From Bacteroidota bacterium (lineage in GTDB: Bacteria; Bacteroidota; Bacteroidia; B-17B0; Aurantibacillaceae), in the NCBI GenBank assembly GCA_029237825.1, contig JAQZBQ010000017.1, positions 1 through 52,420 of the forward strand: a stretch of DNA of 52,420 bases. Reading direction: 5' to 3'. Below, one piece after another: positions 23,044 to 41,261 of the stretch. Made by a program: the position numbers and the translations under genes. Below the pieces are notes generated by a model, which was not told the origin of the DNA, ran no database searches, and saw only the letters and a list, made by a program, of their open reading frames with translations. Positions within the stretch are counted from its first letter, which is position 1. Every line of letters begins with the position of its first letter.

Positions 23044-26000
23044 TTATTTCCCGGAAAACACGGTAAGGAATCCGTTGTATTTTTTATCGTCCGGCACATC
23101 AATGATATAGAAATAGGTTCCATCCGAAACGCCCTCCGCCTTCCATTCGTTATTGTAGTTAGGATTTTCATAAACTTTTCTACCCCAGCGATCAAATATT
23201 GTAACGCTTGTATTAGGGTGATATTCAAGGTTCTTGATGGTAAAATAATCATTGATAATATCACCGTTTGGTGTAATAACGTTTGGTATCACAACCATAC
23301 ATGGAGGAAGTACTTGAATTATTTCAACGTCAGTCGCCTGGTAACCACAACTATCGCTTGCCGTTACATACACTGAATAAGAACCTTCCGCTGAAGGGGT
23401 TGTGTAGGAAAGGTTTTGGGTTGTTGAAATAACGCTTGAGTTGAGCGTCCAAACATAATTGTAATTGTTATATCCTCCGGATGCTGCTGCATTCAATACG
23501 AAAGGCGTGTTTCCGCAAGCTGTTGCAGAATCCAGGATTGCAACGTTTAGCGTGTTTGGTAAAACCACTATTACTTCAACGTCCGAATCTTCATAACCGC
23601 AACTATCAATAACAGTAATGCCCACCGTATAGGTTCCTCCAGAGGCGGCGCTGATGTAATCTAAATTGGCCAGATTTGACACCGTAGTTGAATTAACAGA
23701 CCAAAAATAATTATAGTTAGGATAGCCACCGGTTGTTGACGAATTTAAAGTAACCGCTTTGTTAGGACAGGTGATCACAGAGTTGGTTATCGATACGCTT
23801 AAATCATCCACGAAATTTTTAACTACCACCGTGTCTGATGTTCCTTTGGCACATACGCCATTTACAGTGACTACTAAAGATGTAGTATTATTGCTTGTAA
23901 CTGTATATCCTGACGCTGTATTGATTCCAGGGGCTGGTGCATTCCCCGGTAAGGTTGTCCAGGAGTAAGTATAGGGCGTGCCACTGTTGCCGGGAACGGT
24001 TGATCCTACCCCGGTGTTTAGAATAAACGATTTATTTAAACATTTCGTAACATCCACTAATGGTGTAATAATGAGGTTAGCCATTTGGGTAACATTTACG
24101 GTAATGATTGCTGAATCTGGTGTACTGCTCGGGCATGGAGCATTTCCAACAACTAAATAAGTATTTGTTCCTATTGCAGGCGGTACAACCGTAATGGATG
24201 CCGATGTTGATATCTGCGTATAGCCGCCACTTTGGTAATAAAACCAATTATAATTCGATGCCCCGGTTGCCGATAAGTTTGTGTTGTCGCCTTCACATAA
24301 ATTTAGATTGCTCACTGTTGGTATTACTGTAGTACTGAGCGGTGGATACAAAACTTCCAGCGTTTTCGTTGCTACGCAACCGCCAACGGGATTCGTTACG
24401 GAAAAGGTATATATTACAGAGCCTGTGCCGGATGGTGCAACGGTTGAAGTAGGAACGACCTTAATGGAATCATTGCTATAATTAGCCGTGATGGTACCAT
24501 TTGGTGAAACAGAGATAGTATACGTTGCAGGGTTAGTTGCACCACAATTACCAAAGCGAACATTTGGCCTTTCATTTCCGGATCCATCTACCGTAGAAAG
24601 TGGACATTGGTTAATGTTATCATTATTAATATACTTGGAAGCAACATAACCGGCGTTCGAATATTCAACAGAAAGATTCCCATCCCATGAAGGATTGAAA
24701 AAGCAAACATCTACCAAAAGATTGCTGGTACCATCCCAATCATACGCTTGAGCAAAGTTATAAGTGTTCCAGCCCGTGGTAGCGTTTACAGTGGTAGGGT
24801 TAAATACCTGAACTAATCCGGCATTATCCATACTGGATGTGCTTAAGACATTATAAGAGACACATTTTAATTTAATTGTAAAATTTTGGAAGGATGTTGA
24901 ATTACTATTGGCGTTTGTCATATTAAATGCCAGACTATTAATTTTTCCTGGAGAAATACCGGCAGCCAGTAACTCAGATGCCCTGAACAAAAATTGGTTC
25001 TTCTGACTTTCCCATAATCCGCCATACGGTGAGTAATGAGCCGTACTTCCGCTACTGGTTGATGTTCCTACTTGAATGATGTTTGGTGAAGAACACGTGC
25101 CTGATGTCGATAGTCCGCAGCTGCTTGGCGCAACCTCACCAAAATCAAAGTTCACGGTAACCGGTTGAGGAAAGCATAATACGGTATTGGTTGGTGTAAT
25201 TGTAAAGTTTGTTTGGATGGTTCCAATCGTAACTGTATTGTTGTAAATACATGTTCCGTCATTGGTCACAGCAGAATAAGTTCCCGGCGCAAGGGAAGTT
25301 AAACTTAACGTGCTTGCAGAAGTAACTGTATTGGATACAGTGTTGGCTGCAGTGGGCCCTGTAATATAATAACTATAGGGACCCGAAAACGGTGAAGATA
25401 AATTTAATACAGTCGTTCCATCAGTATTATTAGGACAAACATTTGTTGTATTTGAAAAGTAAACATTACCTCCCGCAATCTGGCTTAATGTGTAAATTAA
25501 TGAATCTTTACATCCCTGAGAATTTGTATACACCAAAGTGTAATTATCCCCATCAACCGCAGGATTAATTTGAAGCGTGTCATTTGATTCTGTTGCTAAT
25601 AAAGTGCTTCCGTGGTACCACATGTAATTGGAACCTCCTGATTGAGCGATCATGGCTGCATTACCGCAATAAGCCTTTGTTAGATTTAGGTAAAATGGTG
25701 GCGACACTCCAACTGAGAGATTCGCAGAAGCTTGGCCACACGTGGTAGAAGCAACTAAAACACTATACGTTCCAGGCGCTAATCCTGTAGCCGTTTGGGA
25801 AGTACTTACGATTGAACCGGTTGTAGCTCCTGAAGTACTAGTCCATGTGTAAGTATAAATTCCGTTACTTCCGTTCGCCTGTACCGATGCTGTCCCTGAA
25901 TTACCTCCGGCACAGGAACTTGTTGAATTTAAATTAATGATGTTAACAGTTGTAAAGCCAATATTTACGGTTTGAGTTAAAGCACATCCGCCGGGTGAAA

Positions 26001-27219
26001 TCATGCTTACAGAATACGTTGTGCCCGGAGTTGCAGGAGTTTGAATGAGTGTGTCATTCGTGGCACCATTAATAATTCCATTAGAATCATACCACTGATA
26101 ACTGGTAAAACCTGTTGGTGCCACAAGCGTAGCAAAATTAGAGCCCGAACACATGTTTGCAAAAGGTGTTCCTATTCCTCCGCATTCTGCATCAACATAG
26201 GCATATCCCCAATGACCTCCCTGAGAGCAACCGCCAACTTCAAAATTAATCGACACGTTTGTACCCGATGGTAAACTTGATAAATCAACCGAGTAAAATT
26301 GCCATTTTCTGTAAAATGTTGGATCAAATGTACTTCCTACAGATGATTGAAATAAAGAGTCGGAAGGTAAAGCTGATTTGGGATTAAAAGTATAAGAAGT
26401 ACAGCCGGGTAAAATTGCACCGGTGGTTTCGTTTTTGACTTCAACTTTAAAATATGGCGACTCTTGTAATAAGTGTCCGGATGGGTTTTGCAAAACCACA
26501 GCATAGCTAAACGATAATCGTTGATTGGTAGATGAAGAAGTTGTAATATATTTTAACCGACAGGCTCTATAATTGGAATTAGCTCCGTTCATCCGCACCG
26601 AAACAGGATCGAAGCTAAAAGGACTTACATATGGGATTTGAGAGATGGTTTGCGTTCCTACGGTTTTACAAGCGTTTTCATCATATCCATTGATGGTTAA
26701 CAGGTTTGGATCCGTTGCGGGAAGTGACATAATTGTGTGATAATTCACAGTATTGCTGGGTGGAACATTGTTTCCGGCAGTATTAACTATGGCTCCTCCG
26801 GTAGATGTATAGTTCGGGTTTCCGCCTGATGGCCCGGTAGAAACAGTTCCTATGCCTCCTGTCCAACCATTAAAATTGTATTGCTCAAAACCCATATTGG
26901 GACACCCAAGACTCATGGGTTTGTTCGGATCCAGATATATAATGGTTTCCTGAACATCTTGTATCCCCAAAGATTCATATGGTGAATGGATATGATTTTG
27001 CTTTTTAAACGCTTTCTGTGAATAGAAATCGTTTTTCAAGAACTCAACATAGCCTTTGATTTCACTAGCTTTTAACCCGAGTGATTTGGCTTTTGCCTGG
27101 GCAGCAGCTTCATCAAAATGTTTGGGATTCGATTTTTTAACTGCCTTTGTTTGCGCCAATACCAGGTTTGGATACAGCGACCATAATATCAATAAAGAAA
27201 AAAGAAGAAATTTTTTCAT
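23044..27219 (-). CDS. Giant secreted protein with gliding-associated (CHU_C, T9SS type B) C-terminal domain
   Basis: A 1391-residue extracellular protein. The signal peptide is residues 1-22 (ending LVLAQ). A jelly-roll-like N-terminal region (about 100-345) is followed by Ig/PKD-type repeats, one of SprB type (about 435-500, GTYSVLVAS), and a second beta-sandwich domain (about 690-880) common in Bacteroidota surface proteins. Two closely related repeats of about 82 residues (each ending DSCGYxxxDVE) come before the sorting domain. The last about 85 residues (VIPNVITPNGDIINDYF, IFDRWGRKVYE, DGTYFYIID) are the CHU_C domain used by the type IX secretion system to secrete and attach cargo. The function is likely adhesion or gliding. 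A good promoter lies at 27285-27315; no T9SS machinery gene is in the window. Confidence 0.93.
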   Translation of the reverse strand: MKKFLLFSLLILWSLYPNLVLAQTKAVKKSNPKHFDEAAAQAKAKSLGLKASEIKGYVEFLKNDFYSQKAFKKQNHIHSPYESLGIQDVQETIIYLDPNKPMSLGCPNMGFEQYNFNGWTGGIGTVSTGPSGGNPNYTSTGGAIVNTAGNNVPPSNTVNYHTIMSLPATDPNLLTINGYDENACKTVGTQTISQIPYVSPFSFDPVSVRMNGANSNYRACRLKYITTSSSTNQRLSFSYAVVLQNPSGHLLQESPYFKVEVKNETTGAILPGCTSYTFNPKSALPSDSLFQSSVGSTFDPTFYRKWQFYSVDLSSLPSGTNVSINFEVGGCSQGGHWGYAYVDAECGGIGTPFANMCSGSNFATLVAPTGFTSYQWYDSNGIINGATNDTLIQTPATPGTTYSVSMISPGGCALTQTVNIGFTTVNIINLNSTSSCAGGNSGTASVQANGSNGIYTYTWTSTSGATTGSIVSTSQTATGLAPGTYSVLVASTTCGQASANLSVGVSPPFYLNLTKAYCGNAAMIAQSGGSNYMWYHGSTLLATESNDTLQINPAVDGDNYTLVYTNSQGCKDSLIYTLSQIAGGNVYFSNTTNVCPNNTDGTTVLNLSSPFSGPYSYYITGPTAANTVSNTVTSASTLSLTSLAPGTYSAVTNDGTCIYNNTVTIGTIQTNFTITPTNTVLCFPQPVTVNFDFGEVAPSSCGLSTSGTCSSPNIIQVGTSTSSGSTAHYSPYGGLWESQKNQFLFRASELLAAGISPGKINSLAFNMTNANSNSTSFQNFTIKLKCVSYNVLSTSSMDNAGLVQVFNPTTVNATTGWNTYNFAQAYDWDGTSNLLVDVCFFNPSWDGNLSVEYSNAGYVASKYINNDNINQCPLSTVDGSGNERPNVRFGNCGATNPATYTISVSPNGTITANYSNDSIKVVPTSTVAPSGTGSVIYTFSVTNPVGGCVATKTLEVLYPPLSTTVIPTVSNLNLCEGDNTNLSATGASNYNWFYYQSGGYTQISTSASITVVPPAIGTNTYLVVGNAPCPSSTPDSAIITVNVTQMANLIITPLVDVTKCLNKSFILNTGVGSTVPGNSGTPYTYSWTTLPGNAPAPGINTASGYTVTSNNTTSLVVTVNGVCAKGTSDTVVVKNFVDDLSVSITNSVITCPNKAVTLNSSTTGGYPNYNYFWSVNSTTVSNLANLDYISAASGGTYTVGITVIDSCGYEDSDVEVIVVLPNTLNVAILDSATACGNTPFVLNAAASGGYNNYNYVWTLNSSVISTTQNLSYTTPSAEGSYSVYVTASDSCGYQATDVEIIQVLPPCMVVIPNVITPNGDIINDYFTIKNLEYHPNTSVTIFDRWGRKVYENPNYNNEWKAEGVSDGTYFYIIDVPDDKKYNGFLTVFSGK
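23305..23800 (-). repeat. Two tandem Ig-like repeats of about 82 residues before the CHU_C domain
   Basis: The units share TxGGYxNYNYxW, GxYxVxxTxxDSCGY and DVExIxVLP, so the second (about 23305-23545) and first (about 23546-23800) arose by duplication. Each has two cysteines. Boundaries are approximate. Confidence 0.7.
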
Positions 27220-27412: not shown

Positions 27413-27420
27413 TAACTTTG
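27413..27420 (+). promoter_or_regulatory. Candidate -7 box of the envelope operon
   Basis: TAACTTTG, an exact TAnnTTTG box, ends 13 bp before the ATG of the penicillin-binding protein gene, so the leader would be only a few bases. No clear -33 TTG is seen. Confidence 0.5.
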
Positions 27421-27433
27421 CCTTTCAAAATTT

Positions 27434-29692
27434 ATGGCCGCTAATAAGTATTCAGGGTTAATCAAATTGACATGGCTTTTATTATGGCTGCCATTTCTTC
27501 TATTATTTTTGATAATTGGCTCTATTGCATTGGAAATCTTTGTGGATTTACCGAGCGTCCAGGAACTTCAAAACCCTAAAAGTAATCTCGCCACAGTTAT
27601 TTACAGCAGCGACATGAAGACGCTTGGAAAATATTATGCCGAGAACCGGGTGAGTGTAAAATATTATGAACTGGACAAAGACCTCGTTAACGCGTTGATT
27701 GCAACTGAAGATGCGCGTTTTCATGACCACAGCGGTGTAGACCTGAGGGCATTAGGCCGGGCCGTTTTTGGAGCTGTTACCGGACGTTCAGGAAGCGGAG
27801 GGGGAAGTACATTATCTCAGCAGTTGGCAAAAATGATGTTCCCGCGGCAAAAGTTGAGCAAGCCTTCAATGATCCTACAAAAATTAAAGGAGTGGGTAAT
27901 TGCCGCGCGCTTAGAGAAGAATTATACAAAGGATGAGATTTTAGCCCTTTACCTAAATAAATTTGATTTTTTAAACCAGGCAGTGGGCGTAAAGTCGGCA
28001 GCACAAATCTACTTCAATCGTTCGCAGGATAGCCTGGAAATACAACAGGCAGCCATGTTAATCGGCATGGCAAAAAATCCGTCTTTGTTCAATCCAATTA
28101 AAAAAGCGGATACAACGCTTCATCGCCGCAACGTGGTTATGATGCAAATGGTTGTAAATGGATTTCTATCAAAAGAGAAATATGACAGTTTAAAACAATT
28201 GCCTTTAGGAATTATCTACCGCCCGGAAGATCACAACGATGGCCTGGCGCCTTATTTCAGAGAGTATTTAAGGGAATATTTTCTAAGAGACTGGTGCTCC
28301 AAACATATTAATCCTGAAACCAACAAGCCATATAATATATACCGCGACGGACTTAGAATTTTCACCACCATCGATTCCCGTATGCAGTTATACGCCGAAC
28401 AGGCTGTTAACGAACACATGACGGATCTTCAGAAATTATTTACAAAGGAGTGTAAAACAAAAAGAAATGCGCCTTTTGCCTGGAATGTGAATAAGGAACA
28501 AATTGAAAATATCATGTTGAGTTCCATGAAACGGAGCGATCGCTACCGTTCATTAAAAAATTCAGGTTTAACTTCTGACCAGGTATTAAACGAGTTTAAA
28601 AAACCGGTTTCCATGGCGGTGTACAGCTTACGTGGCGAAATTGATACCATCATGTCACCCTGGGACAGTATCCGTTATTATAAAAGTTACCTGCATACAG
28701 GATTTATGTCCATTGAACCATCCACCGGTTATGTGAAAGCTTGGGTGGGTGGGGTAAATCATCGCCATTTTAAGTTTGACCACGTGAAGGTTGGTCGCAG
28801 GCAGGTAGGTTCTACGTTTAAGCCTTTTGTTTATGCACTGGCCATACAGGAGGGTTATTCCCCGTGTTATCAGGTAGCAAATGTGAGGACCTGTATTGAA
28901 ACACCCGGGCAGCCGGCCTGGTGTCCGGATAATTCTGATGGCAATAAAGGCACAGGGAAAATGGTAACTCTGCGATACGCACTGGCTGGTTCCATTAATT
29001 ATGTTACCGCATGGGTAATGAAGCAATTCGGGCCAGATGCCGTAATTAACCTCGTTAGACGGTTAGGAATTACTGCGCCAATTGACGCTGTTCCTTCCAT
29101 CGCACTGGGTACACCAGATATTTCTGTTTTTGAAATGGTAGCAGCAAACGCCACTTTTGCAAATAAAGGAACGTACATTCAGCCTACATTTATTACGCGT
29201 ATTGAAGATAAAAACGGTAAGGTTCTGGAAGAGTTTTTTCCTGCTACAGATGAAGTTTTCAGTGAAGAAAAAGCCTATGCGATGATTCAACTCATGCGCG
29301 GAGTTGTAGATCGGGGAACGGGTTCCCGGTTAAGGTCGCGTTACAATTTGCGGAATGAAATTGCGGGTAAAACCGGAACAACGCAAAACAACGCGGACGG
29401 ATGGTTTATGGGATTAACGCCTGAACTTGTGGCGGGTTGTTGGGTTGGTGGCGAGGAACGAAGCATACATTTTAATTCAACTAATGAAGGTCAGGGAGCA
29501 AGTATGGCTTTACCAATATGGGGAAAGTTTTTTCAAAAAGTATATGCTGACCCTTCATTGAAAGTAAGTAAAAACGGATTTGAGAAGCCTGCTCACATGG
29601 GTGACATTGAATTGGATTGCAGTGTATATGATGCGCAAACTGAGAAAGATATTCCCATGGAAGATCTTGATTTTGACGATAACGATAAATAA
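27434..29692 (+). CDS. Class A penicillin-binding protein (PBP1A-type transglycosylase/transpeptidase)
   Basis: A 752-residue bifunctional peptidoglycan synthase. One N-terminal anchor helix (about 10-34) is followed by a GT51 glycosyltransferase domain with catalytic E92 in ATEDARFHDHSGVD and GGGSTLSQQLAKM. The transpeptidase domain has S460-T-F-K463 (nucleophile and lysine), the SxN motif in GSINYVTAW and the KTG triad in AGKTGTTQNNADGWF. It polymerises and cross-links glycan strands in the periplasm. It is the first gene of a ten-gene run; the acyltransferase starts 5 bp after its stop. Confidence 0.96.
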   Translation: MAANKYSGLIKLTWLLLWLPFLLLFLIIGSIALEIFVDLPSVQELQNPKSNLATVIYSSDMKTLGKYYAENRVSVKYYELDKDLVNALIATEDARFHDHSGVDLRALGRAVFGAVTGRSGSGGGSTLSQQLAKMMFPRQKLSKPSMILQKLKEWVIAARLEKNYTKDEILALYLNKFDFLNQAVGVKSAAQIYFNRSQDSLEIQQAAMLIGMAKNPSLFNPIKKADTTLHRRNVVMMQMVVNGFLSKEKYDSLKQLPLGIIYRPEDHNDGLAPYFREYLREYFLRDWCSKHINPETNKPYNIYRDGLRIFTTIDSRMQLYAEQAVNEHMTDLQKLFTKECKTKRNAPFAWNVNKEQIENIMLSSMKRSDRYRSLKNSGLTSDQVLNEFKKPVSMAVYSLRGEIDTIMSPWDSIRYYKSYLHTGFMSIEPSTGYVKAWVGGVNHRHFKFDHVKVGRRQVGSTFKPFVYALAIQEGYSPCYQVANVRTCIETPGQPAWCPDNSDGNKGTGKMVTLRYALAGSINYVTAWVMKQFGPDAVINLVRRLGITAPIDAVPSIALGTPDISVFEMVAANATFANKGTYIQPTFITRIEDKNGKVLEEFFPATDEVFSEEKAYAMIQLMRGVVDRGTGSRLRSRYNLRNEIAGKTGTTQNNADGWFMGLTPELVAGCWVGGEERSIHFNSTNEGQGASMALPIWGKFFQKVYADPSLKVSKNGFEKPAHMGDIELDCSVYDAQTEKDIPMEDLDFDDNDK

Positions 29693-29697
29693 AATAT

Positions 29698-30840
29698 ATG
29701 GAAAACCTCCAAACGAAGAATATATATTTTGCTAATCTCGATATGCTCCGCTTTATTGCTGCGTTTATGGTAGTAATTGCACATGCGTATGATGGCTGGT
29801 GTGGTTGGTGGGGTTATTTTGGGTTCATGACTGTAGATTCAGATCATAAAACACTTACAACCTTTGGAAATTATCTTCACCAAACCATTAAAAATGGCGG
29901 CTTTGGCGTGGAAGTCTTTTTTCTGATTAGCGGGTTTTTAATTACCTATATTTTATTGGTTGAAAAAGAAACAACAGGACGCATTGATATTAAGAAGTTT
30001 TTTATCCGCAGGGGATTTCGAATCTGGCCACTTTATTTTTTACTGATTGCCGTTGCTCCGTTTATTATTGAGTGGCTCCAAAAGCCCACGCCTAATTATA
30101 TGGCAAATATTTTTTTCTATAATAATTTTCATACAATGGTAACGGGTAACTGGGAGTATCCGTTCGCCCACTTCTGGTCAATATGTATTGAGGAGCATTT
30201 TTACCTTGTCTGGCCCTTTATCATAGCGTTTGTTCCAAACAAGCATTTATTAAATGTTTTTTGGAGCGTAATCATTATCAGCGCATTATCGCGTTACGGA
30301 TTTAATGCGGCTGGAAAAGGATTTTACTATACCTATCTCCATACGTTATCCAGGATGGATGTCTTGGCAATAGGGGCAATCGGAGCCTATATGCATTTTA
30401 ATAATGCTTTGAAATTTTCGATTCCAAAACTTGCCCGTATTGGGTTATATATTGTTTTTATCATTATATACGCGGATTCGGCTTATAACATGTACGAAAG
30501 TAATTTTTTAGCGACGCTTCGTAAATACTTTTATGTAGCTGTAATAGCGATAGGAATGTTGAATTTTCTGTTCAATCCGGATGCTCTCATTAAAATAAAA
30601 AATAAAAATTTTATCCACTACCTGGGCAAGATTTCGTACGGAATATACATGTACAGTAATATATTAATTGCGATTATCATTGATAAAATAATAATCCCGT
30701 ATAATCTTGTAAATATGTACATTTACTTTCTTTTAAATATTGGGTTAACGATAATCATTTCCATTATCAGTTACGAATTATTTGAAAAGCAATTCTTAAA
30801 ATTGAAAACAAGGTTTGAAGTTGTAAAAACAAATAGGTAA
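29698..30840 (+). CDS. Acyltransferase 3 (OafA/YrhL-like) membrane protein
   Basis: A 380-residue integral membrane O-acyltransferase with about ten helices. The N-terminal LDMLRFIAAFMVVIAHAYDGW holds the R/H pair conserved in the family, and GFGVEVFFLISGFLITYI and FAHFWSICIEEHFYLVWPF follow. Such enzymes carry acetyl or other acyl groups to sugars of peptidoglycan, lipopolysaccharide or exopolysaccharide. Its position 5 bp after a PBP gene and upstream of glycosyltransferases favours an envelope glycan. It lacks the SGNH domain of longer OafA proteins. Confidence 0.92.
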   Translation: MENLQTKNIYFANLDMLRFIAAFMVVIAHAYDGWCGWWGYFGFMTVDSDHKTLTTFGNYLHQTIKNGGFGVEVFFLISGFLITYILLVEKETTGRIDIKKFFIRRGFRIWPLYFLLIAVAPFIIEWLQKPTPNYMANIFFYNNFHTMVTGNWEYPFAHFWSICIEEHFYLVWPFIIAFVPNKHLLNVFWSVIIISALSRYGFNAAGKGFYYTYLHTLSRMDVLAIGAIGAYMHFNNALKFSIPKLARIGLYIVFIIIYADSAYNMYESNFLATLRKYFYVAVIAIGMLNFLFNPDALIKIKNKNFIHYLGKISYGIYMYSNILIAIIIDKIIIPYNLVNMYIYFLLNIGLTIIISIISYELFEKQFLKLKTRFEVVKTNR

Positions 30841-30843
30841 TTT

Positions 30844-31554
30844 ATGATCAATAAAGTTGTAAAAAATGTAGATGCAGCTCTTGAAGGCATCACCGATAAT
30901 ATGACCCTGTTGGTTGGTGGATTTGGGTTATGCGGAATCCCCGAAAATTGTATCGCAGGTTTGATAAAAAAAGGGGTAAAAGGACTTGTTTGCATCAGCA
31001 ACAATGCAGGCGTTGATGACTTTGGATTAGGGTTACTTTTACAAACGAAACAAATCAAAAAAATGATTGCTTCTTACGTTGGCGAAAATGCAGAGTTTGA
31101 GCGTCAAATGCTGAGCGGTGAATTGGAGGTGGAACTGGTACCGCAGGGCACTTTGGCAACTCGTTGTTTAATGGCAGGTTTGGGCATACCTTTTTTTCCT
31201 ACACCGGCCGGCGTTGGAACTGAGGTAGCAACCGGAAAGGAAGTTCGCACAATCACCTACAATGGAGAAACCAAAGATTACTTAATTGAAAACGCCTTTG
31301 AAGCAGATTATGCGATTGTGAAAGCGTGGAAAGGTGACACAGCTGGTAACCTGATTTTTAGGTCAACCGCGCGCAATTTTAATCAACCAATGGCAATGGC
31401 TGGAAAGATAACCATTGCTGAGGTAGAAGAATTGGTAGAAGTGGGCGAGTTAAATCCGGATCAAATTCATGTTCCAGGTATATATGTAAACCGGATTTTT
31501 AAAGGCGAGAAATACGAGAAACGAATCGAACAAAGAACAGTCATTAAAAAATAA
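30844..31554 (+). CDS. scoA: 3-oxoacid CoA-transferase, subunit A
   Basis: A 236-residue alpha subunit of succinyl-CoA:3-oxoacid CoA-transferase (SCOT), which moves CoA from succinyl-CoA to acetoacetate. Typical stretches are [44 protein letters not shown] and [16 protein letters not shown]. The length is normal. The beta subunit lies 526 bp downstream, separated by a lipoprotein gene. Starting 3 bp after the acyltransferase stop, it is part of the same run. Confidence 0.95.
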
Positions 31555-31567
31555 TCAGAATTAATTT

Positions 31568-32080
31568 ATGAGAAAAGCAATTATTTTAGCAGCTATCGTA
31601 TTGATTGGATGCAATAAAGAAGAGCCTAAAAAAGAAGTAGTATTGGATCTGTCTGGTGAGCTGACGCAGGTAAATTTGCCTACTTTAATACAGGATCCAA
31701 ATAATGCAGGTAATTCCTATGCACAGGTTGACAGTATTGTTAAATACGGTTTTGGATATAAATTGCTATTGCCAGACTCATTAATTGGAAAATCGTTAAA
31801 AGTTATTCTAACTGCAAAGGTAAAAGAGACAGAGTCAATCACAGGAGAATTGGATGTTTCAGTTAATGAATCGAATATGGCCACGTTGTTTTGGGGTTTT
31901 ACTCAGGCTAAAAATTCAGTGAAAGCCCTGAATAATTGGACAAACCTTAAGGATTCAGTGATGATTCCTGCCGACAAGAATAATAAAAAGGGTTCCTCGC
32001 TTTTTGTTTTCAGTTCAAAACAGAATGGTAAAGGATTTTTCTGCGTAGATAACTTTAAAATTAAAATTATTCAGGAATAA
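31568..32080 (+). CDS. Small predicted lipoprotein with beta-sandwich, between the SCOT subunit genes
   Basis: A 170-residue protein with a lipoprotein signal (lipobox LIGC, Cys15) followed by acidic and lysine-rich residues. No family was recognised. The mature part is predicted to be mostly beta, with NNWTNLKDSVMIP and FCVDNFKIKII. This pattern (W..L....P, then VD(D/N)xKxxI) resembles carbohydrate-binding jelly rolls of the CBM4/9 type. It also resembles the C-terminal extension of the GT-C-like protein at 36006. It starts 13 bp after scoA and its stop overlaps the scoB ATG by one base (TAATG), so it is cotranscribed with both. Confidence 0.75.
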   Translation: MRKAIILAAIVLIGCNKEEPKKEVVLDLSGELTQVNLPTLIQDPNNAGNSYAQVDSIVKYGFGYKLLLPDSLIGKSLKVILTAKVKETESITGELDVSVNESNMATLFWGFTQAKNSVKALNNWTNLKDSVMIPADKNNKKGSSLFVFSSKQNGKGFFCVDNFKIKIIQE

Positions 32081-32736
32081 TGTTAGATAAAAACGGAATA
32101 GCAAAACGTATAGCGAGGGAAGTTCAGGATGGCATGTATGTAAATCTTGGTATTGGAATTCCTACACTTGTAGCAAATTACATTCCTGAAGGAATTAATG
32201 TTGTTCTTCAATCTGAGAACGGGATACTTGGGATGGGACCTTTCCCTTTTGAAGGGGAAGAAGACGCGGATTTAATTAATGCAGGAAAGCAAACGGTTAC
32301 ATTATTGCCGGGCTCGTCCATATTTGATTCTTCTATTAGCTTTGGCATGATCAGGGCGCAGCGCGTGAACCTGACTATTTTGGGCGCTATGGAAGTAAGT
32401 GAAAATGGTGATATAGCGAATTGGAAAATACCTGGGAAAATGGTAAAGGGCATGGGTGGTGCGATGGATTTGGTTGCCAGTGCAAAGAATATTATTGTGG
32501 CTATGCAACAAGTGAATAAGGCAGGCGAATCAAAATTACTTTCGAAATGTGATTTACCATTAACGGGAGTTAAATGCGTGAAAAAAATTGTTACTGAACT
32601 GGGTGTTTATTCAGTGTTAGCAGAAGGAGGCTTTAAATTGTTAGAACGTGCTCCGGGAGTTAGTGTTGAACAAATAAAAAATGCTACTGCGGGGAAATTG
32701 ATAATTGAAGGTGAAGTTCCTGAGATGGTTATTTAA
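32080..32736 (+). CDS. scoB: 3-oxoacid CoA-transferase, subunit B
   Basis: A 218-residue beta subunit of SCOT. The catalytic glutamate that forms the enzyme-CoA thioester is E46 in SENGILGMGP. Also visible are NLGIGIPTLVANY, LPGSSIFDSSISFGM and GGAMDLVASAKNII. It pairs with the alpha subunit at 30844. Translation is coupled to the upstream lipoprotein by a TAATG overlap, and the next gene starts 2 bp after the stop. Confidence 0.95.
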   Translation: MLDKNGIAKRIAREVQDGMYVNLGIGIPTLVANYIPEGINVVLQSENGILGMGPFPFEGEEDADLINAGKQTVTLLPGSSIFDSSISFGMIRAQRVNLTILGAMEVSENGDIANWKIPGKMVKGMGGAMDLVASAKNIIVAMQQVNKAGESKLLSKCDLPLTGVKCVKKIVTELGVYSVLAEGGFKLLERAPGVSVEQIKNATAGKLIIEGEVPEMVI

Positions 32737-32738
32737 CT

Positions 32739-34142
32739 ATGCAATTAGATTTTCACAATATTTCTTTTTCAAAAATTCTTTTTGCCAGGATGAAAAAACC
32801 GAGTGTATTGGTATTTTTTATCTTTTTTATTTTTACCCTCTTCACTTACAAATTTTGGATTAATTGGTTAGAATTCGGTCCATTTGTTAACGATGTCGAT
32901 CAGTATTATTCCTATCTCGTCGCTCAATTTATTCATCACGACTTTAATTTTCAATTTAATCATTTTTATTGGCTCACTCCAACTGAAATTGGGACCGTAG
33001 TTCCTAAGGTTACCATGGGAATGGCTTTTATGTATGCTCCTTTTTTTTTGATTGCAAATAATATTGCTTATAACCACGGATACGACGATTTAGGATATAG
33101 TGCACCTTATATGTGGAGTGTTCATTTCGGGGTGATACTTTATGTATTAATTGGATTATGGTTTTGTCGGAAATCACTCTTAATGTTTTTCAATGAATGG
33201 GTTACCACATTTACCTTACTTATTGTTTTATTTGGAACTAATTTGTTTTATTACACTTATAAGGAAGGAGCAATGGTTCACGGAACTTTATTTTGCCTTA
33301 TCTCAATTTTTATATTTCAAGTACTAAAATGGCAATTTACTAAGCAGGTTAAGCATGTATATTTTTTTTCTTTTTTTGCTGGATTAATCACGCTTATCCG
33401 TCCAACTGAAATTCTAATCTTAATTTTTCCAATATTCTTATTTGTCACCACGGCTCATGATTTTAAAATTAAGTTGTTGGAAATTATAAAGCTAAAGTGG
33501 AAGCTGGGGATCGCGATATTTTGTTTTTTACTTCCCATAATTCCACAGCTTCTTTTTTGGAAAGAGCATACCGGCCATTACCTTTTCTTCTCTTATGGTT
33601 CACAGGAAGGGTTTTTTTTCGGTGATCCCAAGTTTTATGATGTATTATTTAGCTGGCGGAAGGGTTGGCTTCTTTATACACCAGTAATGGTATTTTCACT
33701 TATCGGGCTTGGAATTATGTGGTTCAATTACAGAAAGCTTGCTTTGCCAATAGTAATTTATTTCATTTTGAGCCTTTATTTGATTTCAAGTTGGTGGGAT
33801 TGGGGTTATGGAGGGTCTTTTGGTATGAGGGCATTGGTACAATCGTATGCATTTTTAGCTTTTCCTCTTGCATATTTTTTGAAATGGATTGCTCAAGTAT
33901 TTAAGGCAATGATAGGAAAGATAATTATGGTATCATGTATTACTCCTATTTTTGGATTTTTAATTTATTTAAACATGTATCAAACATATCAAATGAATTG
34001 TAGTTTACTTCACTGGGATTCAATGACTAAAGAGGCATATCAGTACACTTTCTTAACTACGGATGTAAATCGGGTTTACCTGGAAACACTTTTTAAACAT
34101 CCTAATTACGAAGAGATGCGGAAAGGAAACAGGGATGAGTAA
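32739..34142 (+). CDS. Polytopic membrane protein, GT-C glycosyltransferase-like
   Basis: A 467-residue membrane protein with about ten helices. The first periplasmic loop has NDVDQYYSY, where GT-C enzymes keep a catalytic aspartate. The motifs IRPTEI, LFSWRKGWLLYTPVM and SWWDWGYGGSFGMRAL recur in the protein at 36006, so the two are paralogs. It probably moves a sugar from a polyprenyl-phosphate carrier to an acceptor outside the membrane. A start at 32790 is possible, but 2-bp spacing to scoB favours 32739. The GT2 gene overlaps its end by 8 bp. Confidence 0.72.
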   Translation: MQLDFHNISFSKILFARMKKPSVLVFFIFFIFTLFTYKFWINWLEFGPFVNDVDQYYSYLVAQFIHHDFNFQFNHFYWLTPTEIGTVVPKVTMGMAFMYAPFFLIANNIAYNHGYDDLGYSAPYMWSVHFGVILYVLIGLWFCRKSLLMFFNEWVTTFTLLIVLFGTNLFYYTYKEGAMVHGTLFCLISIFIFQVLKWQFTKQVKHVYFFSFFAGLITLIRPTEILILIFPIFLFVTTAHDFKIKLLEIIKLKWKLGIAIFCFLLPIIPQLLFWKEHTGHYLFFSYGSQEGFFFGDPKFYDVLFSWRKGWLLYTPVMVFSLIGLGIMWFNYRKLALPIVIYFILSLYLISSWWDWGYGGSFGMRALVQSYAFLAFPLAYFLKWIAQVFKAMIGKIIMVSCITPIFGFLIYLNMYQTYQMNCSLLHWDSMTKEAYQYTFLTTDVNRVYLETLFKHPNYEEMRKGNRDE

Positions 34143-34875
34143 TGTTGTTAAAGTTGCCGTAATAATTCCATGCTTTAACGAAGAACAAAATGTGTTGAAG
34201 CTGTATCACGAGATCAAAAGTATTGTCCTAACATCAGATATTCAATTATGTCCAATATTTATTAATGATTGTTCGACAGATAAAACAATTGACGTTTTAA
34301 TCTCCAATAACATTCCTTACATTAATTTACCTGTAAATCTTGGAATAGGTGGAGCAGTGCAAACCGGGTATAAATACGCATGTCGTAATGGGTTTGATGT
34401 TGCTGTTCAAATGGATGGAGATGGTCAGCACCCTCCTTGCCAGCTAGAAAAAATTCTTTCGCCAATACTACAAGGAAAATGTGATGTGTCGATCGGATCT
34501 CGGTATATTACCAGAGAAGGATTTCAGTCATCTCTGGCAAGAAGGGTTGGAATTAATTATTTTAAATGGCTAAATAATTTATTGGTTAGTGTTATTGTTC
34601 ATGATAGTACCTCGGGTTATCGGGCACTAAATGCAAAAGCGCTTGAGGTAGTTGCTCATTACTATCCGGATGAATATCCAGAGCCCGAGGCAATTATTTT
34701 ATATTCATTGAACGGTTTGAAGATTTCAGAAGTGCCAGTTGTTATGCGGGAACGCGAAAATGGCCAGTCATCGATTAGATCATATAAAACTGTGTATTAT
34801 ATGTTTAAAGTCAGCTTGGGAATATTGTTTTTGTTTATCAGATTAAAATTTAATGGAAAACGTAATACCTTATAG
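34135..34875 (+). CDS. GT2 glycosyltransferase, polyprenol-phosphate type
   Basis: A 246-residue GT-A enzyme. It opens VAVIIPCFNEEQNV, contains a DGDGQHPP donor site (DxD) and GSRYITREGF, and STSGYRALNAKAL is like dolichol-phosphate-mannose synthase or GtrB. A hydrophobic C-terminal helix (about 220-240) would place it at the membrane. It likely loads a hexose on a lipid carrier on the cytoplasmic face for the GT-C proteins next to it. It overlaps both neighbours (8 and 23 bp), so expression is tightly coupled. Confidence 0.92.
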   Translation: MSNVVKVAVIIPCFNEEQNVLKLYHEIKSIVLTSDIQLCPIFINDCSTDKTIDVLISNNIPYINLPVNLGIGGAVQTGYKYACRNGFDVAVQMDGDGQHPPCQLEKILSPILQGKCDVSIGSRYITREGFQSSLARRVGINYFKWLNNLLVSVIVHDSTSGYRALNAKALEVVAHYYPDEYPEPEAIILYSLNGLKISEVPVVMRERENGQSSIRSYKTVYYMFKVSLGILFLFIRLKFNGKRNTL

Positions 34876-35224
34876 ATTGCAAATTATAGCTATTTTGATA
34901 GCGTTAATTTTTATGTTTTTTGTATTCAGGCTAATAACTAAAGGCCGTTTACGTGAAGAATATTCTTTTATTTGGATTATCTGTACCGTATTGTTGTTGC
35001 TATTTTCTTTTTGGAGAAATGGGCTCGATGTCATCGCGAAAATTTTGGGCGTTTATTATGCGCCTTCCCTAATTTTCATGGCTGCTATTTTTGCAATTGT
35101 TTTATTTTTAGTTCATTTATCAGTAGTAAATTCAAAACAGCATAAACAAATTAGAGAGTTGGCCCAGGAGCTTGCTTTACTTCGAAAGAAGATTGAAGCG
35201 GATGGTGCTAATATTGGAAAATGA
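34853..35224 (+). CDS. DUF2304 small membrane protein
   Basis: A 123-residue protein with three helices (about 6-25, 38-58, 70-92) and a basic, coiled C-terminal tail (LAQELALLRKKIE). DUF2304 genes are nearly always next to a DPM1-like GT2, as here (23-bp overlap). The usual reading is that it is a membrane partner or lipid-carrier flipping/anchoring subunit; the function is not proven. Confidence 0.87.
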   Translation: MENVIPYRLQIIAILIALIFMFFVFRLITKGRLREEYSFIWIICTVLLLLFSFWRNGLDVIAKILGVYYAPSLIFMAAIFAIVLFLVHLSVVNSKQHKQIRELAQELALLRKKIEADGANIGK

Positions 35225-35276
35225 CCCAAAGTTATCTATTCCTTAACGAAAAAAATTACCTTTAAAATCTATTTTT

Positions 35277-35999
35277 ATGAGCCAAAAACTTTCCATTTTA
35301 ATACCAGCCTATAATGAGGCACGGACGATTCATCAGATTTTGAATAAAGTTTTGGCCGTGAAATTAATAGGTGGTCTTACAAAAGAAATTGTAATTGTAA
35401 ATGATTGCTCTAAAGATGAAACACAGAACGTAATTATAGAATATTTTAATGAACATCCGGAAATTGAAACCATTTTATTTGAACAGCCCCATAATCAGGG
35501 CAAGGGTGCCGCTATTCGAAAAGCTATAGAATTGGCGACGGGGGACTTTTTAATTGTTCAGGACGCCGACCTGGAATATGATCCTGAAGAATACAATTTA
35601 TTGTTAAAGCCTATTTTAAATAATGTAGCGGATGTAGTGTATGGTTCGCGATTTATTGGAGGAAAACCCCATCGCATATTATTTTTCTGGCACTCCATAG
35701 GAAATAAATGGTTAACACTTCTTTCTAATATGTTTACAAATCTGAACTTGACCGATATGGAAACATGTTACAAATTGTTCCGGGCAGATATTATCAAAGG
35801 AATCCAATTAAATGAAAATCGATTCGGGTTTGAGCCAGAAGTCACTGCAAAAATTTCCCGCATAAAGAATCTGAGGTTGTATGAGATAGGAATCTCGTAT
35901 TATGGAAGGACATATGAGGACGGAAAAAAAATCGGGGCTAAAGATGGTTTTCGGGCAATTTACTGTATTTTGAAATACGGGTTGTTCAAGGCAAAATAA
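35277..35999 (+). CDS. GT2 glycosyltransferase, dolichol-phosphate mannosyltransferase-like
   Basis: A 240-residue GT-A enzyme of the DPM1/DPMS group: [35 protein letters not shown], the donor site [18 protein letters not shown] and METCYKLFR. It is shorter in hydrophobic segments than the GT2 at 34135 and probably peripheral. Two polyprenol-phosphate enzymes in one operon suggest two different sugars or donors. A -7-like TACCTTTA (35257-35264) in the 52-bp gap could give an internal promoter. The next gene starts 6 bp on. Confidence 0.93.
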
Positions 36000-36005
36000 A
36001 AAAGG

Positions 36006-37886
36006 ATGCTATCTTCTAACAATCTTTCACACCACGTTTCAAAAGTTTGCCTTCTGGCAATCAGCCTTATAATTGCCGCGTTTGTCTTTTTACATTTACC
36101 GCTTAATGCCTTCAGTCATGATGTTTTTGGATACTATCTGTATCTCCCTTTAACTTTTAAATACCAAAATTTAGACATTCATGATTTCAATACTGTTCAG
36201 GGAATTATTTTAAAATATCACAATACAGAATCCTTTTACCAGGCTTTTAAATTGGAGAGCGGTAATTGGGTGTTGAAATATTCTATGGGAATGTCAGTAT
36301 TATACCTTCCTTTTTATTTCATTGGTGATGTATGCGCTCAATTTTTTAGCTTTCCAACGGATGGCTTCTCCAGGCCTTATCAAGTCAGTGTTCTTGCCGG
36401 ATGTTATTTATATACCATTTTGGGTTTAAGTGTTTTAAGAAAAATCTTACTTCATTTTTTTACCGATAAGCTTTCAGCGATCGTTTTGATGATAATTGTA
36501 TTTGGTACTAATTTTTTCTTTCATGTGGCGTTTCACGGTCAAGGTTTAATGTCACATAATATTTTATTTATGTTACACGCTTTTACCGTTTGGAATACGA
36601 TCAAGTGGCATCAAAGCAAGAAATTATCGCACATTGTTTACCTGGGGATTAGTATGGGTTTATCGGCTATTGTGCGGCCCACAGAAATAGTGATCATCCT
36701 GTTTCCATTATTATATGGTGTTCATTCGTTTCCTTCATTGAAGGATAAGCTGACGATTCTTTTCACTTCCCATAGGTTCCATTTAGCTTTGTTAAGTTTT
36801 ATCATTTTAGTAATAATGAGTTATCAGCTATTTTATTGGAAAATTATTACCGGACATTTCTTATATAACAGTTACAGTTCCAACCCGGCAGAGGGTTTGA
36901 ATTTTCTTCATCCCTACATATTGGAAGTTCTGTTTAGCTTTAGGAAAGGATGGTTAATTTATACCCCTGTCATGATATTGGCTATCCTTGGATTAATCAT
37001 GCTGTACCGCAGGAACAAGACAGTTTTCTTTGCACTCACTATTTTTTCCATTATCAACTTTTATATCGTTGCCAGCTGGTCGTGTTGGTGGTATGCTTCC
37101 AGTTATAGTTCAAGGGCTTTGATTCCGAGTTATGTACTTATGTCGATTCCACTGGGTTATTTTCTTGAAAGCGGACTTCAGAAAAAATGGAGATGGTTTA
37201 TTTTTTCAATTATTACCCTGCTCACAGCTTTGAATTTATTCCAAACCTGGCAGTCAACCAGGGGAATTATCGATGGAGCTAGAATGACTAAGAAACTTTA
37301 TAAATCTGTTTTTTTACAAACCCATTTTATGTCTGAGGACCAGAAAAAATTATTATTGGTTGACAAATATGGCGCTTCCTCCGAAACTTTTAATTTTGCC
37401 GATTCAATTAATTATGTATCCTCTCTAGCACAGTACTTAAATTATGATAACGGAACTAACACGTATCCCTATAGCACAAAAGAGGTTTACCACTCTCCAG
37501 CTATAAGTATTCTTACGAATGGAAGTAATCCATTTTCTCCTGCAATTTCTTTCCGCTATAAAGAACTCACTAAAAAGTCCTATATCTGGGTGAAAGCGTC
37601 GGCGTGGGTTTTTTCAAGTCACAATATGGATAGCATTGACGCGTCGTTGGTAGTGAATATGACCCATAAAGATGTTTCTTATAAGTACAGAGAAGAACCG
37701 GTTTCCAACCACCATTTCGAAAAAGGCACATGGAATAAAATTGAAAAGTATTTTTTAACACCCGATTTTATGGATAATAATGATAAGATTCACGTATTTT
37801 TTTGGAATAAAACCAATAGTGATATCTATGTGGATGATTTGAAAATGGAAATCTTGGAACCTAAAGTAGATGAATCTGTTTTTTAG
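36006..37886 (+). CDS. GT-C-like membrane protein with C-terminal beta-sandwich extension
   Basis: A 626-residue protein. The first about 450 residues are about ten helices and parallel the protein at 32739: FSHDVFGYY in the first loop, VRPTEI, LFSFRKGWLIYTPVM and ASWSCWWYASSYSSRAL. The last about 170 residues are soluble and beta-rich, with GTWNKIEKYFLTPDF and IYVDDLKMEIL, like carbohydrate-binding jelly rolls and like the lipoprotein at 31568. It probably acts on lipid-linked sugars at the outer face, with the extension binding glycan. It ends the ten-gene run; no terminator was seen in the 30 bp to the convergent gene. Confidence 0.72.
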   Translation: MLSSNNLSHHVSKVCLLAISLIIAAFVFLHLPLNAFSHDVFGYYLYLPLTFKYQNLDIHDFNTVQGIILKYHNTESFYQAFKLESGNWVLKYSMGMSVLYLPFYFIGDVCAQFFSFPTDGFSRPYQVSVLAGCYLYTILGLSVLRKILLHFFTDKLSAIVLMIIVFGTNFFFHVAFHGQGLMSHNILFMLHAFTVWNTIKWHQSKKLSHIVYLGISMGLSAIVRPTEIVIILFPLLYGVHSFPSLKDKLTILFTSHRFHLALLSFIILVIMSYQLFYWKIITGHFLYNSYSSNPAEGLNFLHPYILEVLFSFRKGWLIYTPVMILAILGLIMLYRRNKTVFFALTIFSIINFYIVASWSCWWYASSYSSRALIPSYVLMSIPLGYFLESGLQKKWRWFIFSIITLLTALNLFQTWQSTRGIIDGARMTKKLYKSVFLQTHFMSEDQKKLLLVDKYGASSETFNFADSINYVSSLAQYLNYDNGTNTYPYSTKEVYHSPAISILTNGSNPFSPAISFRYKELTKKSYIWVKASAWVFSSHNMDSIDASLVVNMTHKDVSYKYREEPVSNHHFEKGTWNKIEKYFLTPDFMDNNDKIHVFFWNKTNSDIYVDDLKMEILEPKVDESVF

Positions 37887-37916: not shown

Positions 37917-39323
37917 CTAATCATTCTTTTGGTATACGATTAATTTAAAATTTCCTCCATCATTAAATTCTTTAATAATTTTATAGTTACAATTTTCCAC
38001 ATCATTTGGCTTCACATTAAAAGAAGATTCGGAAAACATTGAGTCCCAAAAGCAATAAGTTGGAAGGTGTAGTTCGGCATGACAATCATTTCTAAAAACT
38101 AATTGTTCGCGATTAAGCGCTTTATCAAATGGATCTCGATCAAGATGTAAAATTATGCTCGGATGTGCATAGTATATGACATACTTTTCAGGCATGATGG
38201 TCTTAAACCATTCAGCAGCGTCGATTTCACATTTTTCCGCGCCCCAGGCTTTAAGTGGATAACCCATGTTTTTAAACGGAGCCTGAATATGAAAAAAGGA
38301 AAATAATGATATTAAAAAAATCGAAATATATTTAGAGCGAATAGAAAAAACAACTTTATCACATGCCCATAGTGCTACAACTACATAGCAAGGAAACACA
38401 CTTGCAAGTACACGCTCTAACCCGGCAGACCCGCATAATCCATAATGCCAAACGTACAGATGAAATATTAAGAAAATCATGGAGGGTATGAAAAATAAGT
38501 AGAAAATTTTGGATGTTTGATTCATCTTCTGCCAGAAAATATACTGAGCTTCTTTAATGAAATAATAGAATAGGATCAAACCGCCAAAACAAAATATAAT
38601 CAGAAATGGAAGACCCCAAATATTTTCATATCTTTTCAAAATATCAAGGAAATGCCCATGGCCATAAGGGCTAAGCACTTGATAGGGGTTTTCTGTGAAA
38701 TACCAAAAGAAATTATGGCCCATAATATAGCCAACAATAGAATAAAGGACAAATCCTAGACCCAACAGCGGAAGGTATTTCCACTGCTTAGATATAATTA
38801 AGTAAACTCCATAACATAAAAGAATAAACATTCCTTCACTTCTGGAGAAAATAATAAAGGATAATAGACAAGTCGCCATTAACGGATTGCCCTTTAAGTA
38901 TAAATATGCAACAGTTATTAGAATTAAACTAAAAAGTGGTTCCGTAAGCGCTGATTGAAGAGTGATAAAATATATTGGGGAAAATATTAATACGATAATA
39001 GAAAGCCACGCATACTTAATATTCAGGTAAAGCAGGCATTTATATACCATAATTGCTGCGAGAATTCCACAGAGAATATTGAATATCTTAATTCCATAAA
39101 ATCCAAATTGTGCGAAACCTGTGCTTAAAAGTATAAAAAGTGGTTTTCCCCAATGATGTAAAAAGAGATCCGGATATTTTAAAGCATATTTAGAAAAATA
39201 ATAATGCCAAACATTATCAGCACCGCCTTCGCAAATTTCATTGTAGTAACTATAATAAAGGAGCATTAATACAATACCAATTGATAAAAAAGCGAACAAA
39301 GAGTGTTTTTTTATAAAAGTCAT
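37917..39323 (-). CDS. Polytopic membrane protein, GT39/ArnT-like (GT-C)
   Basis: A 468-residue membrane protein with about ten helices. CEGGADNVWHYY in the first loop carries an aspartate in the GT-C position, and HHWGKPLF, SALTEPLFS and SRSEGMF match the ArnT/PMT-like mannosyltransferase layout. It is not a close paralog of the other two GT-C-like proteins. The C-terminus is a soluble periplasmic part of about 130 residues. It is monocistronic or the last gene after wecB, with an 86-bp gap upstream. Substrate unknown. Confidence 0.7.
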   Translation of the reverse strand: MTFIKKHSLFAFLSIGIVLMLLYYSYYNEICEGGADNVWHYYFSKYALKYPDLFLHHWGKPLFILLSTGFAQFGFYGIKIFNILCGILAAIMVYKCLLYLNIKYAWLSIIVLIFSPIYFITLQSALTEPLFSLILITVAYLYLKGNPLMATCLLSFIIFSRSEGMFILLCYGVYLIISKQWKYLPLLGLGFVLYSIVGYIMGHNFFWYFTENPYQVLSPYGHGHFLDILKRYENIWGLPFLIIFCFGGLILFYYFIKEAQYIFWQKMNQTSKIFYLFFIPSMIFLIFHLYVWHYGLCGSAGLERVLASVFPCYVVVALWACDKVVFSIRSKYISIFLISLFSFFHIQAPFKNMGYPLKAWGAEKCEIDAAEWFKTIMPEKYVIYYAHPSIILHLDRDPFDKALNREQLVFRNDCHAELHLPTYCFWDSMFSESSFNVKPNDVENCNYKIIKEFNDGGNFKLIVYQKND

Positions 39324-40555: not shown

Positions 40556-40559
40556 AATT

Positions 40560-41261
40560 TTAAATGAGTCCTTCGTCAGCAAAACTTAGGTAAGATTGGT
40601 CGCCAATAATTAAATGGTCTTGTAAACTTATATCCATCAATTTTGCAGCTTCTTTAATTTTTTTTGTTAAGTGAATGTCTTCCTGGCTGGGTTTTAAATT
40701 GCCGGAAGGATGATTGTGCGCGAGTATAATGGCGCTTGCCAAATGGTGAATGGCGGGCTTTAGGATTAAGCGGATATCAACCACGGTTCCGCTGATTCCC
40801 CCACGGCTGATGCATTCCGTTTTAATGACACTATTGCTTCTACTCATAAAAATAACCCAGAACTCCTCATGTGGCAAATCAGTCAATTTTGATTTTAAAA
40901 CAGCGAAGGCATTTTTAGAAGATGTAATTTTAATTTTTTCATCCTGAGATTCGCTTCCTCTTCTTCTTCCTATTTCTAATGCTGCAGCAATTGTTACTGC
41001 CTTGGCTTCACCAACACCTTTATAAGTCATGAGGTCGTGTAATGATGCTTTTGCCAATTCATTGATAGAGTTTGCATACTCGTTTAAAATCCGCTGAGCA
41101 AGTCGAACGGCTGTTTCATCCCTGTTGCCAGAGGAGAGAAGTATGGCCAGTAGTTCAGCATCGGAAAGCGCCTGCCTGCCTTTACTTACAAGCTTCTCTC
41201 TTGGGCGATCATCTTCAGCCCATGATTTAATTGTTAGATGTTTTTGGATAGTATCCTCCAT
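40560..41261 (-). CDS. radC: RadC/UPF0758 family JAMM protein
   Basis: A 233-residue protein: a UPF0758 N-terminal helix-hairpin-helix-like part (PREKLVSKGRQALSDAELLAI, YKGVGEAKAVTIAAALELGRR-type) and a C-terminal JAMM metalloprotease fold with H182-x-H184-x7-S192-x2-D195 (HNHPSGNLKPSQED). The name is historical; a role in DNA repair is not supported in other species. The promoter shares 54 bp with the divergent MFS gene. Confidence 0.95.
   Translation of the reverse strand: MEDTIQKHLTIKSWAEDDRPREKLVSKGRQALSDAELLAILLSSGNRDETAVRLAQRILNEYANSINELAKASLHDLMTYKGVGEAKAVTIAAALEIGRRRGSESQDEKIKITSSKNAFAVLKSKLTDLPHEEFWVIFMSRSNSVIKTECISRGGISGTVVDIRLILKPAIHHLASAIILAHNHPSGNLKPSQEDIHLTKKIKEAAKLMDISLQDHLIIGDQSYLSFADEGLI

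Follow-up and report, generated by a model that had tools for sequence, protein, structure and literature searches.

The window analyzed here, 52,420 nucleotides of contig JAQZBQ010000017.1 from a Bacteroidota bacterium whose assembly comprises 3.55 Mb in 33 contigs, contains a run of ten plus-strand genes in which PBP1A and the two subunit genes of 3-oxoacid CoA-transferase (SCOT; scoA and scoB) alternate with genes that look like glycan-decoration genes (Table 1). An earlier note on this DNA had placed ten open reading frames between 27434 and 37886; all were found at exactly those positions, and the spacings measured between them (5, 3, 13, -1, 2, -8, -23, +52 and 6 bp) agree with it. PBP1A, a class A penicillin-binding protein (PBP), carries both the Transgly and the Transpeptidase domain (Pfam) and scored 482.1 bits against TIGR02074, just under the strict cut-off of 508.75. 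Both SCOT subunits passed curated cut-offs (TIGR02429, 234 bits versus 128.5; TIGR02428, 312.8 versus 243.55), the top PDB match of the scoA product was SCOT subunit A (3rrl, E 1.8e-88), and the scoB translation contains the active-site stretch SENGILG. Hereafter, PBP1A, scoA and scoB are referred to as the trio or backbone, and the genes lodged within or behind them as cargo.

Table 1 Genes and other features of the ten-gene run in the window.
Feature	Position	Strand	Basis
Bacteroidota-type -7 box TAACTTTG, possible promoter of the run	27413..27420	+	13 bp before PBP1A start
PBP1A, transglycosylase and transpeptidase; backbone	27434..29692	+	Pfam, NCBIfam
Acyltransferase 3 (OafA type); cargo in slot PBP|scoA	29698..30840	+	Pfam Acyl_transf_3
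scoA, 3-oxoacid CoA-transferase subunit A; backbone	30844..31554	+	CoA_trans, TIGR02429
LIP, lipoprotein with jelly-roll domain; cargo between scoA and scoB	31568..32080	+	Lipobox, predicted fold
scoB, 3-oxoacid CoA-transferase subunit B; backbone	32080..32736	+	CoA_trans, TIGR02428
GTC1, predicted small GT-C glycosyltransferase, 467 aa; cargo module A	32739..34142	+	AlphaFold 2 fold
GT2a, polyprenyl-phosphate-sugar synthase-like GT2 in GacI-like position; module A	34135..34875	+	Glycos_transf_2
DUF2304 membrane protein, GacJ-like; module A	34853..35224	+	PF10066
52-bp gap, border of modules A and B	35225..35276	+	Spacing; module make-up in relatives
GT2b, second polyprenyl-phosphate-sugar synthase-like GT2; module B	35277..35999	+	Pfam GT2; DPM synthase match
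GTC2, putative large GT-C, 626 aa, C-terminal jelly-roll-type domain from about residue 446; module B	36006..37886	+	Sequence alignment

The close spacing suggests that the ten genes are co-transcribed. Between 27200 and 38000, on both strands, neither terminator-like sites (5 versus 8.1 expected) nor sigma70-like promoter sites (41 versus 40.6 expected) were in excess. The motif TAnnTTTG, presumably the Bacteroidota-type -7 box, occurred 11 times on the plus strand compared to 7.9 in base shuffles, so the box ahead of PBP1A is weak evidence for a promoter.

To place the run among its relatives, scoA was located in 76 of 90 genomes (77 matches) and 72 scoA stretches were fetched and mapped (the 90-genome set); the remaining five matches were the window itself, G018 (a near copy of G013), partial scoA genes in G011 and G036, and a second copy in G043. 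A second, overlapping set of loci titled by organism (the named set; overlap for example at L104 and G010) contributed 79 of 80 loci, L135 not being mappable. Genes were taken to be open reading frames of 90 aa or more, and were labeled by blastp (E 1e-6) against representatives. A locus was counted as linked when a same-strand PBP1A lay no more than three genes upstream of scoA; stretches that lacked a PBP and reached less than 3 kb beyond scoA on its upstream side were excluded. On this definition, 47 of 67 testable loci of the 90-genome set and 50 of 75 named loci were linked. The upstream order in other families was holB-ricT-gldH-PBP1A-scoA-scoB, the first three genes being identified by Pfam in L077 (DNA_pol3_delta2, PSP1 and GldH_lipo) and by blastp elsewhere. 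All five loci titled Flavobacterium held ricT-gldH-PBP1A-scoA-scoB with no cargo family anywhere in the mapped stretch; the adjacency of PBP1A and SCOT is thus old and independent of the glycan genes. Gene order across relatives indicates that the trio is an old Bacteroidia housekeeping block, in which SCOT is most likely a bystander working as an ordinary CoA-transferase. The CoA-transferase that had earlier been singled out as an unexpected member of a glycan pathway is therefore better assigned to this housekeeping neighborhood, which also exists without cargo. In a Sphingobacterium in which scoA-scoB is unlinked from PBP1A, the gene between the two subunit genes encodes a thiolase, as ketone-body metabolism would suggest. 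Four further loci (L047, L068, L071 and L074, from G027, G033, G052 and G043) carried a transaldolase-CBS gene after scoA, with scoB not adjacent; in G027, scoA lay mid-contig and scoB on a different contig. The nearest named loci by scoA were uncultured Bacteroidota metagenome-assembled genomes, one of which, labeled Chitinophaga pinensis, reached 92%. In another close relative (L032 and L184, G010; scoA 93%), scoAB and PBP1A lay on separate contigs, neither place having a cargo family.

In the window's family, cargo occupied three slots: between PBP and scoA, between scoA and scoB, and behind scoB. Among the 44 loci of the 90-genome set with all three backbone genes, the slot scoA|scoB was occupied in 26 and the slot PBP|scoA in 11, the latter holding an acyltransferase 3 gene in two. 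The contents differed from locus to locus and comprised the lipoprotein, an acyltransferase of the MBOAT type accompanied by a 334-374-aa protein (the MBOAT partner), family 2 glycosyltransferases (GT2) paired with fold-type-C glycosyltransferases (GT-C), PMT_2-type GT-Cs, acyltransferase 3, 23S_rRNA_IVP proteins and proteins without a match; FAD oxidoreductases, methyltransferases and DUF2079 proteins were additional cargo behind scoB. The MBOAT partner had no Pfam match in the two members scanned (334 and 374 aa), nor had several cargo membrane proteins of 467-547 aa, whose GT-C nature is therefore only putative. GC content was lower in the window's cargo (0.327-0.360) than in its trio (0.399-0.425).

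The opening of scoA|scoB, the subunit genes of a single enzyme, by glycan genes was observed repeatedly and is the unexpected part of this arrangement. In the 62 genomes with both genes in order on one contig (counting the window's genome and both G013 and G018), scoA and scoB were at least 300 bp apart in 35, with a maximum of 10.2 kb (G116), and no distance fell between 201 and 299 bp. They lay on different contigs or strands in 11 further genomes, a contig break being the cause at least in G007. As a control, etfB-etfA showed no comparable split (300 bp or more) in any of the 65 pairs among the matches listed, from 64 of the 90 genomes; the domain matches were at most 366 bp apart, which leaves no gene between them. 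On a backbone tree built by a quick method from the three backbone proteins (45 rows), 13 changes between split and intact scoA-scoB were counted, at least 10 of them forced by the starred branches, with gain and loss indistinguishable. Genes of other kinds were also seen at this junction. A 23S_rRNA_IVP-type protein of 122-133 aa lay between scoA and scoB in L064, L073, L078, L083 and L096, which belong to several families (Pfam-checked in L064 and L078), and is perhaps an independent small mobile gene favoring the site. An ABC transporter gene on the opposite strand lay there in L177 (Chryseobacterium gwangjuense) and L094 (G107). A reading of the cargo as defense genes was dropped after PADLOC gave nothing beyond one match at E 0.0074.

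Cargo tracked the linkage of PBP1A and scoA. Same-strand cargo near scoA was present at 41 of 47 linked versus 2 of 20 unlinked loci in the 90-genome set, and at 27 of 50 versus 2 of 25 in the named set. PBP1A genes not adjoining scoA had no cargo families in 20 stretches, 17 of which reach 2.6-14 kb behind PBP. Within linked loci, 149 cargo-family genes lay downstream of PBP, 134 of them on its strand and 15 on the other, as against a single one upstream. One of the two unlinked cargo-bearing loci, L068, had an isolated GT2 two genes from rho. The possibility of hidden cargo among unlabeled neighbors of unlinked PBP and scoA genes was addressed by Pfam scans of a selection of 20 genes. At L103, these revealed a Wzy_C O-antigen-ligase-type protein before scoA and one protein without a match, at a locus already counted as cargo-bearing; the others were not cargo (SBP_bac_5, UvrC, adhesin-like, SelO, DUF1015, Rho, pyruvate kinase, aminotransferase, efflux, apolipoprotein N-acyltransferase, kinase, GGT and type IX secretion system proteins), including ten neighbors of unlinked PBP1A.

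A pair of sister loci, L056 and L057, had conserved flanks and variable cargo, as at an exchangeable surface-glycan locus. Nucleotide identity was high on the left (NTR upstream, 94.6%; PBP, 97.0%; scoA, 94.0%), fell in the middle (scoB, 88.4%; FADox, 84.5%; PMT-like GT-C, 63.2%; GTC1, 73.5%) and rose again at the right end (GT2a, 92.3%; DUF2304, 97.3%). In L056, a LIP gene sits between scoA and scoB with 1 bp to each neighbor, whereas in L057 only 14 bp separate the two subunit genes and another lipoprotein gene follows scoB, so that the 59% identity between the two lipoprotein genes compares non-equivalent positions. The difference is clean gene-for-gene with no duplicated target visible. 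This profile of a replaced middle between conserved flanks suggests cassette exchange.

The glycosyltransferase cargo of the window falls into two modules. GTC1 and GTC2 had no Pfam match and matched the NCBIfam LA_3751/LA_3752 putative glycosyltransferase family weakly (29.9 and 38 bits; cut-off 200). The AlphaFold 2 model of GTC1 (pLDDT 91.5) aligned with ALG12 (Z 26.0, 369 residues, 4.0 A) and ArnT (Z 22.8, 352 residues, 4.3 A), and GTC1 is accordingly modeled as a GT-C, sharing the fold of ArnT, Pmt and ALG enzymes at about 10% identity. GTC2 aligned with GTC1 and appears to be a large GT-C that differs from those enzymes by its extra jelly-roll-type domain. The best PDB match of GT2a was dolichyl-phosphate mannose (DPM) synthase (5mlz, E 1.9e-12), which GT2b also matched (E 2.5e-18), and the DUF2304 protein scored 98.1 bits against PF10066 (cut-off 25.5), its gene overlapping GT2a by 23 bp. 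The set GTC1-GT2a-DUF2304 was present in all eight fetched DUF2304-bearing loci of the 90-genome set. In the named set, it was found in L117 and L128, while in L116, L120 and L124 GT2a-DUF2304 stood directly behind scoB with no GTC1 in front. Across whole genomes, at least 15 of 26 above-cut-off DUF2304 genes had a GT-C match less than 3 kb away (among the matches listed), and 10 of the 26 lay within 20 kb of scoA, showing that the GT-C/DUF2304 module occurs elsewhere too. GT2b with a GT-C recurred without DUF2304 in relatives; the 52-bp gap, the sole wide one in the run, coincides with the border between the two modules.

Similar modules are known from Gram-positive bacteria. GacJ of Streptococcus pyogenes is reported to boost the GlcNAc-P-Und synthase GacI, GacL being the proposed sugar transferase (PMC8327497), and lactococcal WpsA and WpsB show the same GT2/DUF2304 relation (PMC10821137). 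The window shares with GacI/GacJ/GacL-type glycosylation a GT2 of the polyprenyl-phosphate-sugar synthase type, a DUF2304 gene directly behind it and a GT-C (PMC8327497, PMC10821137, PMC8035078); it differs in its Gram-negative host and in that neither a Wzx nor a GtrA flippase was found in the run.

LIP, a protein of 170 aa without a Pfam match, was the only copy in its genome found by its profile at E 0.001, and a single-protein search gave matches in 36 of 150 genomes, its own included. Its AlphaFold 2 model (pLDDT 88.9) is a jelly roll resembling the carbohydrate-binding modules (CBMs) CBM15, CBM16, CBM22 and CBM4, with CBM15 1gny at Z 9.9 (rmsd 3.3, 137 aligned, 10% identity). The likeness is one of fold, and unrelated, non-CBM jelly rolls scored within 1 Z of 1gny. 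The LIP profile also matched the C-terminal domain of the large GT-Cs (the 626-aa GTC2 type) with an hhalign probability of 98.7 and a score of 104. Controls scored at most 18.2 (best of 60 column shuffles), 11.9 (reversed) and 10.3 (transmembrane columns), and an artefact was rejected on this margin; profile comparison thus indicates that LIP is homologous to this domain, which the small GT-Cs (about 467 aa) lack.

A review describes extracellular carbohydrate-binding domains on some of the larger GT-Cs and speculates that small ones need a second protein for acceptor binding (PMC8035078). LIP was considered as such an obligate partner and set aside, as 21 linked loci with GTC1/GTC2-type GT-Cs showed no preference in co-occurrence: LIP accompanied small GT-Cs in 6 loci and only large ones in 4, and was lacking from 6 loci with small GT-Cs and 5 with only large ones (p = 1.0). 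From its lipobox cysteine the window's LIP reads C-N-K-E-E, which fits the signal C-X-K-(D/E)2-X described as optimal for surface export in Capnocytophaga canimorsus (PMC5080379). Among 25 LIP members, acidic residues made up 34% at positions +2 to +6 versus 12% further on; 12 members had at least two acidic residues there, and K-(D/E)2 at +3 to +5 occurred only in the window's copy. Such a signal would put LIP at the cell surface, not next to an enzyme of the inner membrane, and together with the absent preference it speaks against LIP as the acceptor-binding partner of small GT-Cs.

Several genes beside the run were also compared. A large membrane protein without a Pfam match (37917-39323, minus strand), convergent to the run, may be another movable glycan gene because a homologue sits upstream of PBP in L056. 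Next to it, a wecB-like epimerase gene (39410-41261, minus strand) bounded the cargo on the right in six loci of the same genus (L040, L043, L044, L049, L052 and L053); radC follows it in the four of these for which the stretch extends far enough. On the other side, a protein of 1391 aa that carries a CHU_C type IX secretion domain (23044-27219, minus strand) is divergent from PBP1A and has homologues at the equivalent place in many same-genus loci.

We interpret the locus as a conserved housekeeping trio that acts as a carrier of exchangeable surface-glycan genes, a reading to which we assign a probability of roughly two in three. Comparison of the loci indicates an old trio whose three slots hold different glycosylation and O-acylation sets, with flanks and trio kept while cargo diverges or is replaced. 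Transcription from the PBP1A promoter would cover the cargo as well, and homologous recombination within the conserved genes would exchange it, in the manner of serotype loci. Polyprenyl phosphate would be loaded with sugars by GT2b and by GT2a, the latter with the help of DUF2304. GTC1 and GTC2 would pass these sugars to a glycan or glycoprotein in the periplasm, and acyltransferase 3 would acylate the glycosylated product; a surface-type LIP may bind the same glycan through the domain it shares with GTC2.

Several points weigh against this interpretation. The Fisher tests on linked versus unlinked counts ignore relatedness, and the upstream/downstream count is partly circular because the cargo families were chosen from the same loci. 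L103 (G034) is a clear exception, with acyltransferase 3 between scoA and scoB and no PBP1A nearby, and scoA|scoB is also interrupted by opposite-strand and non-glycan genes. The low GC content of the cargo is also what membrane proteins commonly show. The case for recombinational exchange depends largely on a single pair of sister genomes, both uncultured, and the change may have run in either direction; L057 may have lost LIP, as its relatives carry LIP in that slot. No flippase was present among the ten genes and no GtrA in the genome; a Wzx outside the run was not searched for.

A rather unlikely alternative is ordinary decay of gene order, in which tolerant junctions receive common glycan genes by chance. 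It would account for the opposite-strand ABC transporter and IVP genes that also interrupt scoA|scoB, and for the Sphingobacterium thiolase; it sits poorly with the uninterrupted etfB-etfA pairs, the strand bias of the cargo, and its scarcity at unlinked scoA and unlinked PBP. Considerably less probable is the single dedicated pathway proposed in the earlier note, in which SCOT would supply acyl-CoA to the glycan acyltransferase and PBP1A would act in the same process. The tight gene spacing, the recurrence of PBP-acyltransferase 3-scoA-LIP-scoB in L033 and L059 (the latter from another genus), and the near confinement of cargo to loci with PBP and scoA linked would all agree with it. However, SCOT resembles an ordinary metabolic SCOT, and the role of SCOT as acyl donor was rejected as the main explanation because cargo-free trios exist (as in Flavobacterium) and the acyltransferase is rare in the slot PBP|scoA. 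A lipid-linked-sugar glycosylation and acylation set is indeed physically tied to PBP1A, but the comparison does not support the ten genes being one pathway or conserved unit. On the test that the note itself set, scattered genes in relatives, the answer is divided: the full order was found in none of the 47 linked loci (some of them, among them L033, the closest, break off after scoB where the contig ends, too early for the order to be judged), but PBP1A-scoA-scoB, GTC-GT2a-DUF2304 and GT2b with a GT-C each recur as blocks. Least probable of all is a mobile element with its target at the scoA|scoB junction, for which the IVP-type proteins found there in several families might argue, since no integrase or transposase was found in a selection of 29 scanned cargo proteins and L056 differs gene-for-gene with no visible target duplication.

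Serotype-type glycan loci sit between fixed housekeeping genes, for example the pneumococcal cps locus between dexB and aliA, near pbp genes. The window locus is alike in its conserved flanks, its exchangeable glycan genes and the differing cargo of sister genomes. It differs in that the cargo is interleaved with a trio resembling an operon, where it separates two genes for subunits of a single enzyme, and in that it looks like a set of decoration genes rather than a whole polymer pathway. Each part is of a known kind; what is new is the arrangement, with one enzyme's subunit genes repeatedly opened by cargo. Searches of an open-licence library, which lacks most subscription journals, listed no paper describing this locus.

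A carrier-and-cargo locus accounts for the odd mixture of genes in the run. A tentative extension, with the odds somewhat against it, is that, in a group of uncultured Bacteroidia, the PBP1A-scoA-scoB operon serves specifically as a platform on which genes for surface-glycan decoration are swapped, with scoA|scoB as a preferred slot, and that LIP is the acceptor-binding domain of large GT-Cs in a separate, surface-exposed form. If true, LIP would fill the role of the distinct partner, binding acceptor or glycan, that the review postulates for small GT-Cs (PMC8035078). The domain shared by LIP and the GT-Cs makes it testable whether small GT-Cs need a separate acceptor-binding protein, as raised there (PMC8035078). 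The repeated opening of the SCOT pair, while the one other subunit pair tested (etfB-etfA) stayed closed, bears on how operons take up cargo. Overall, the locus would offer a fixed genomic place for reading surface-glycan types in these bacteria, and may be relevant to their resistance to phages and grazers.

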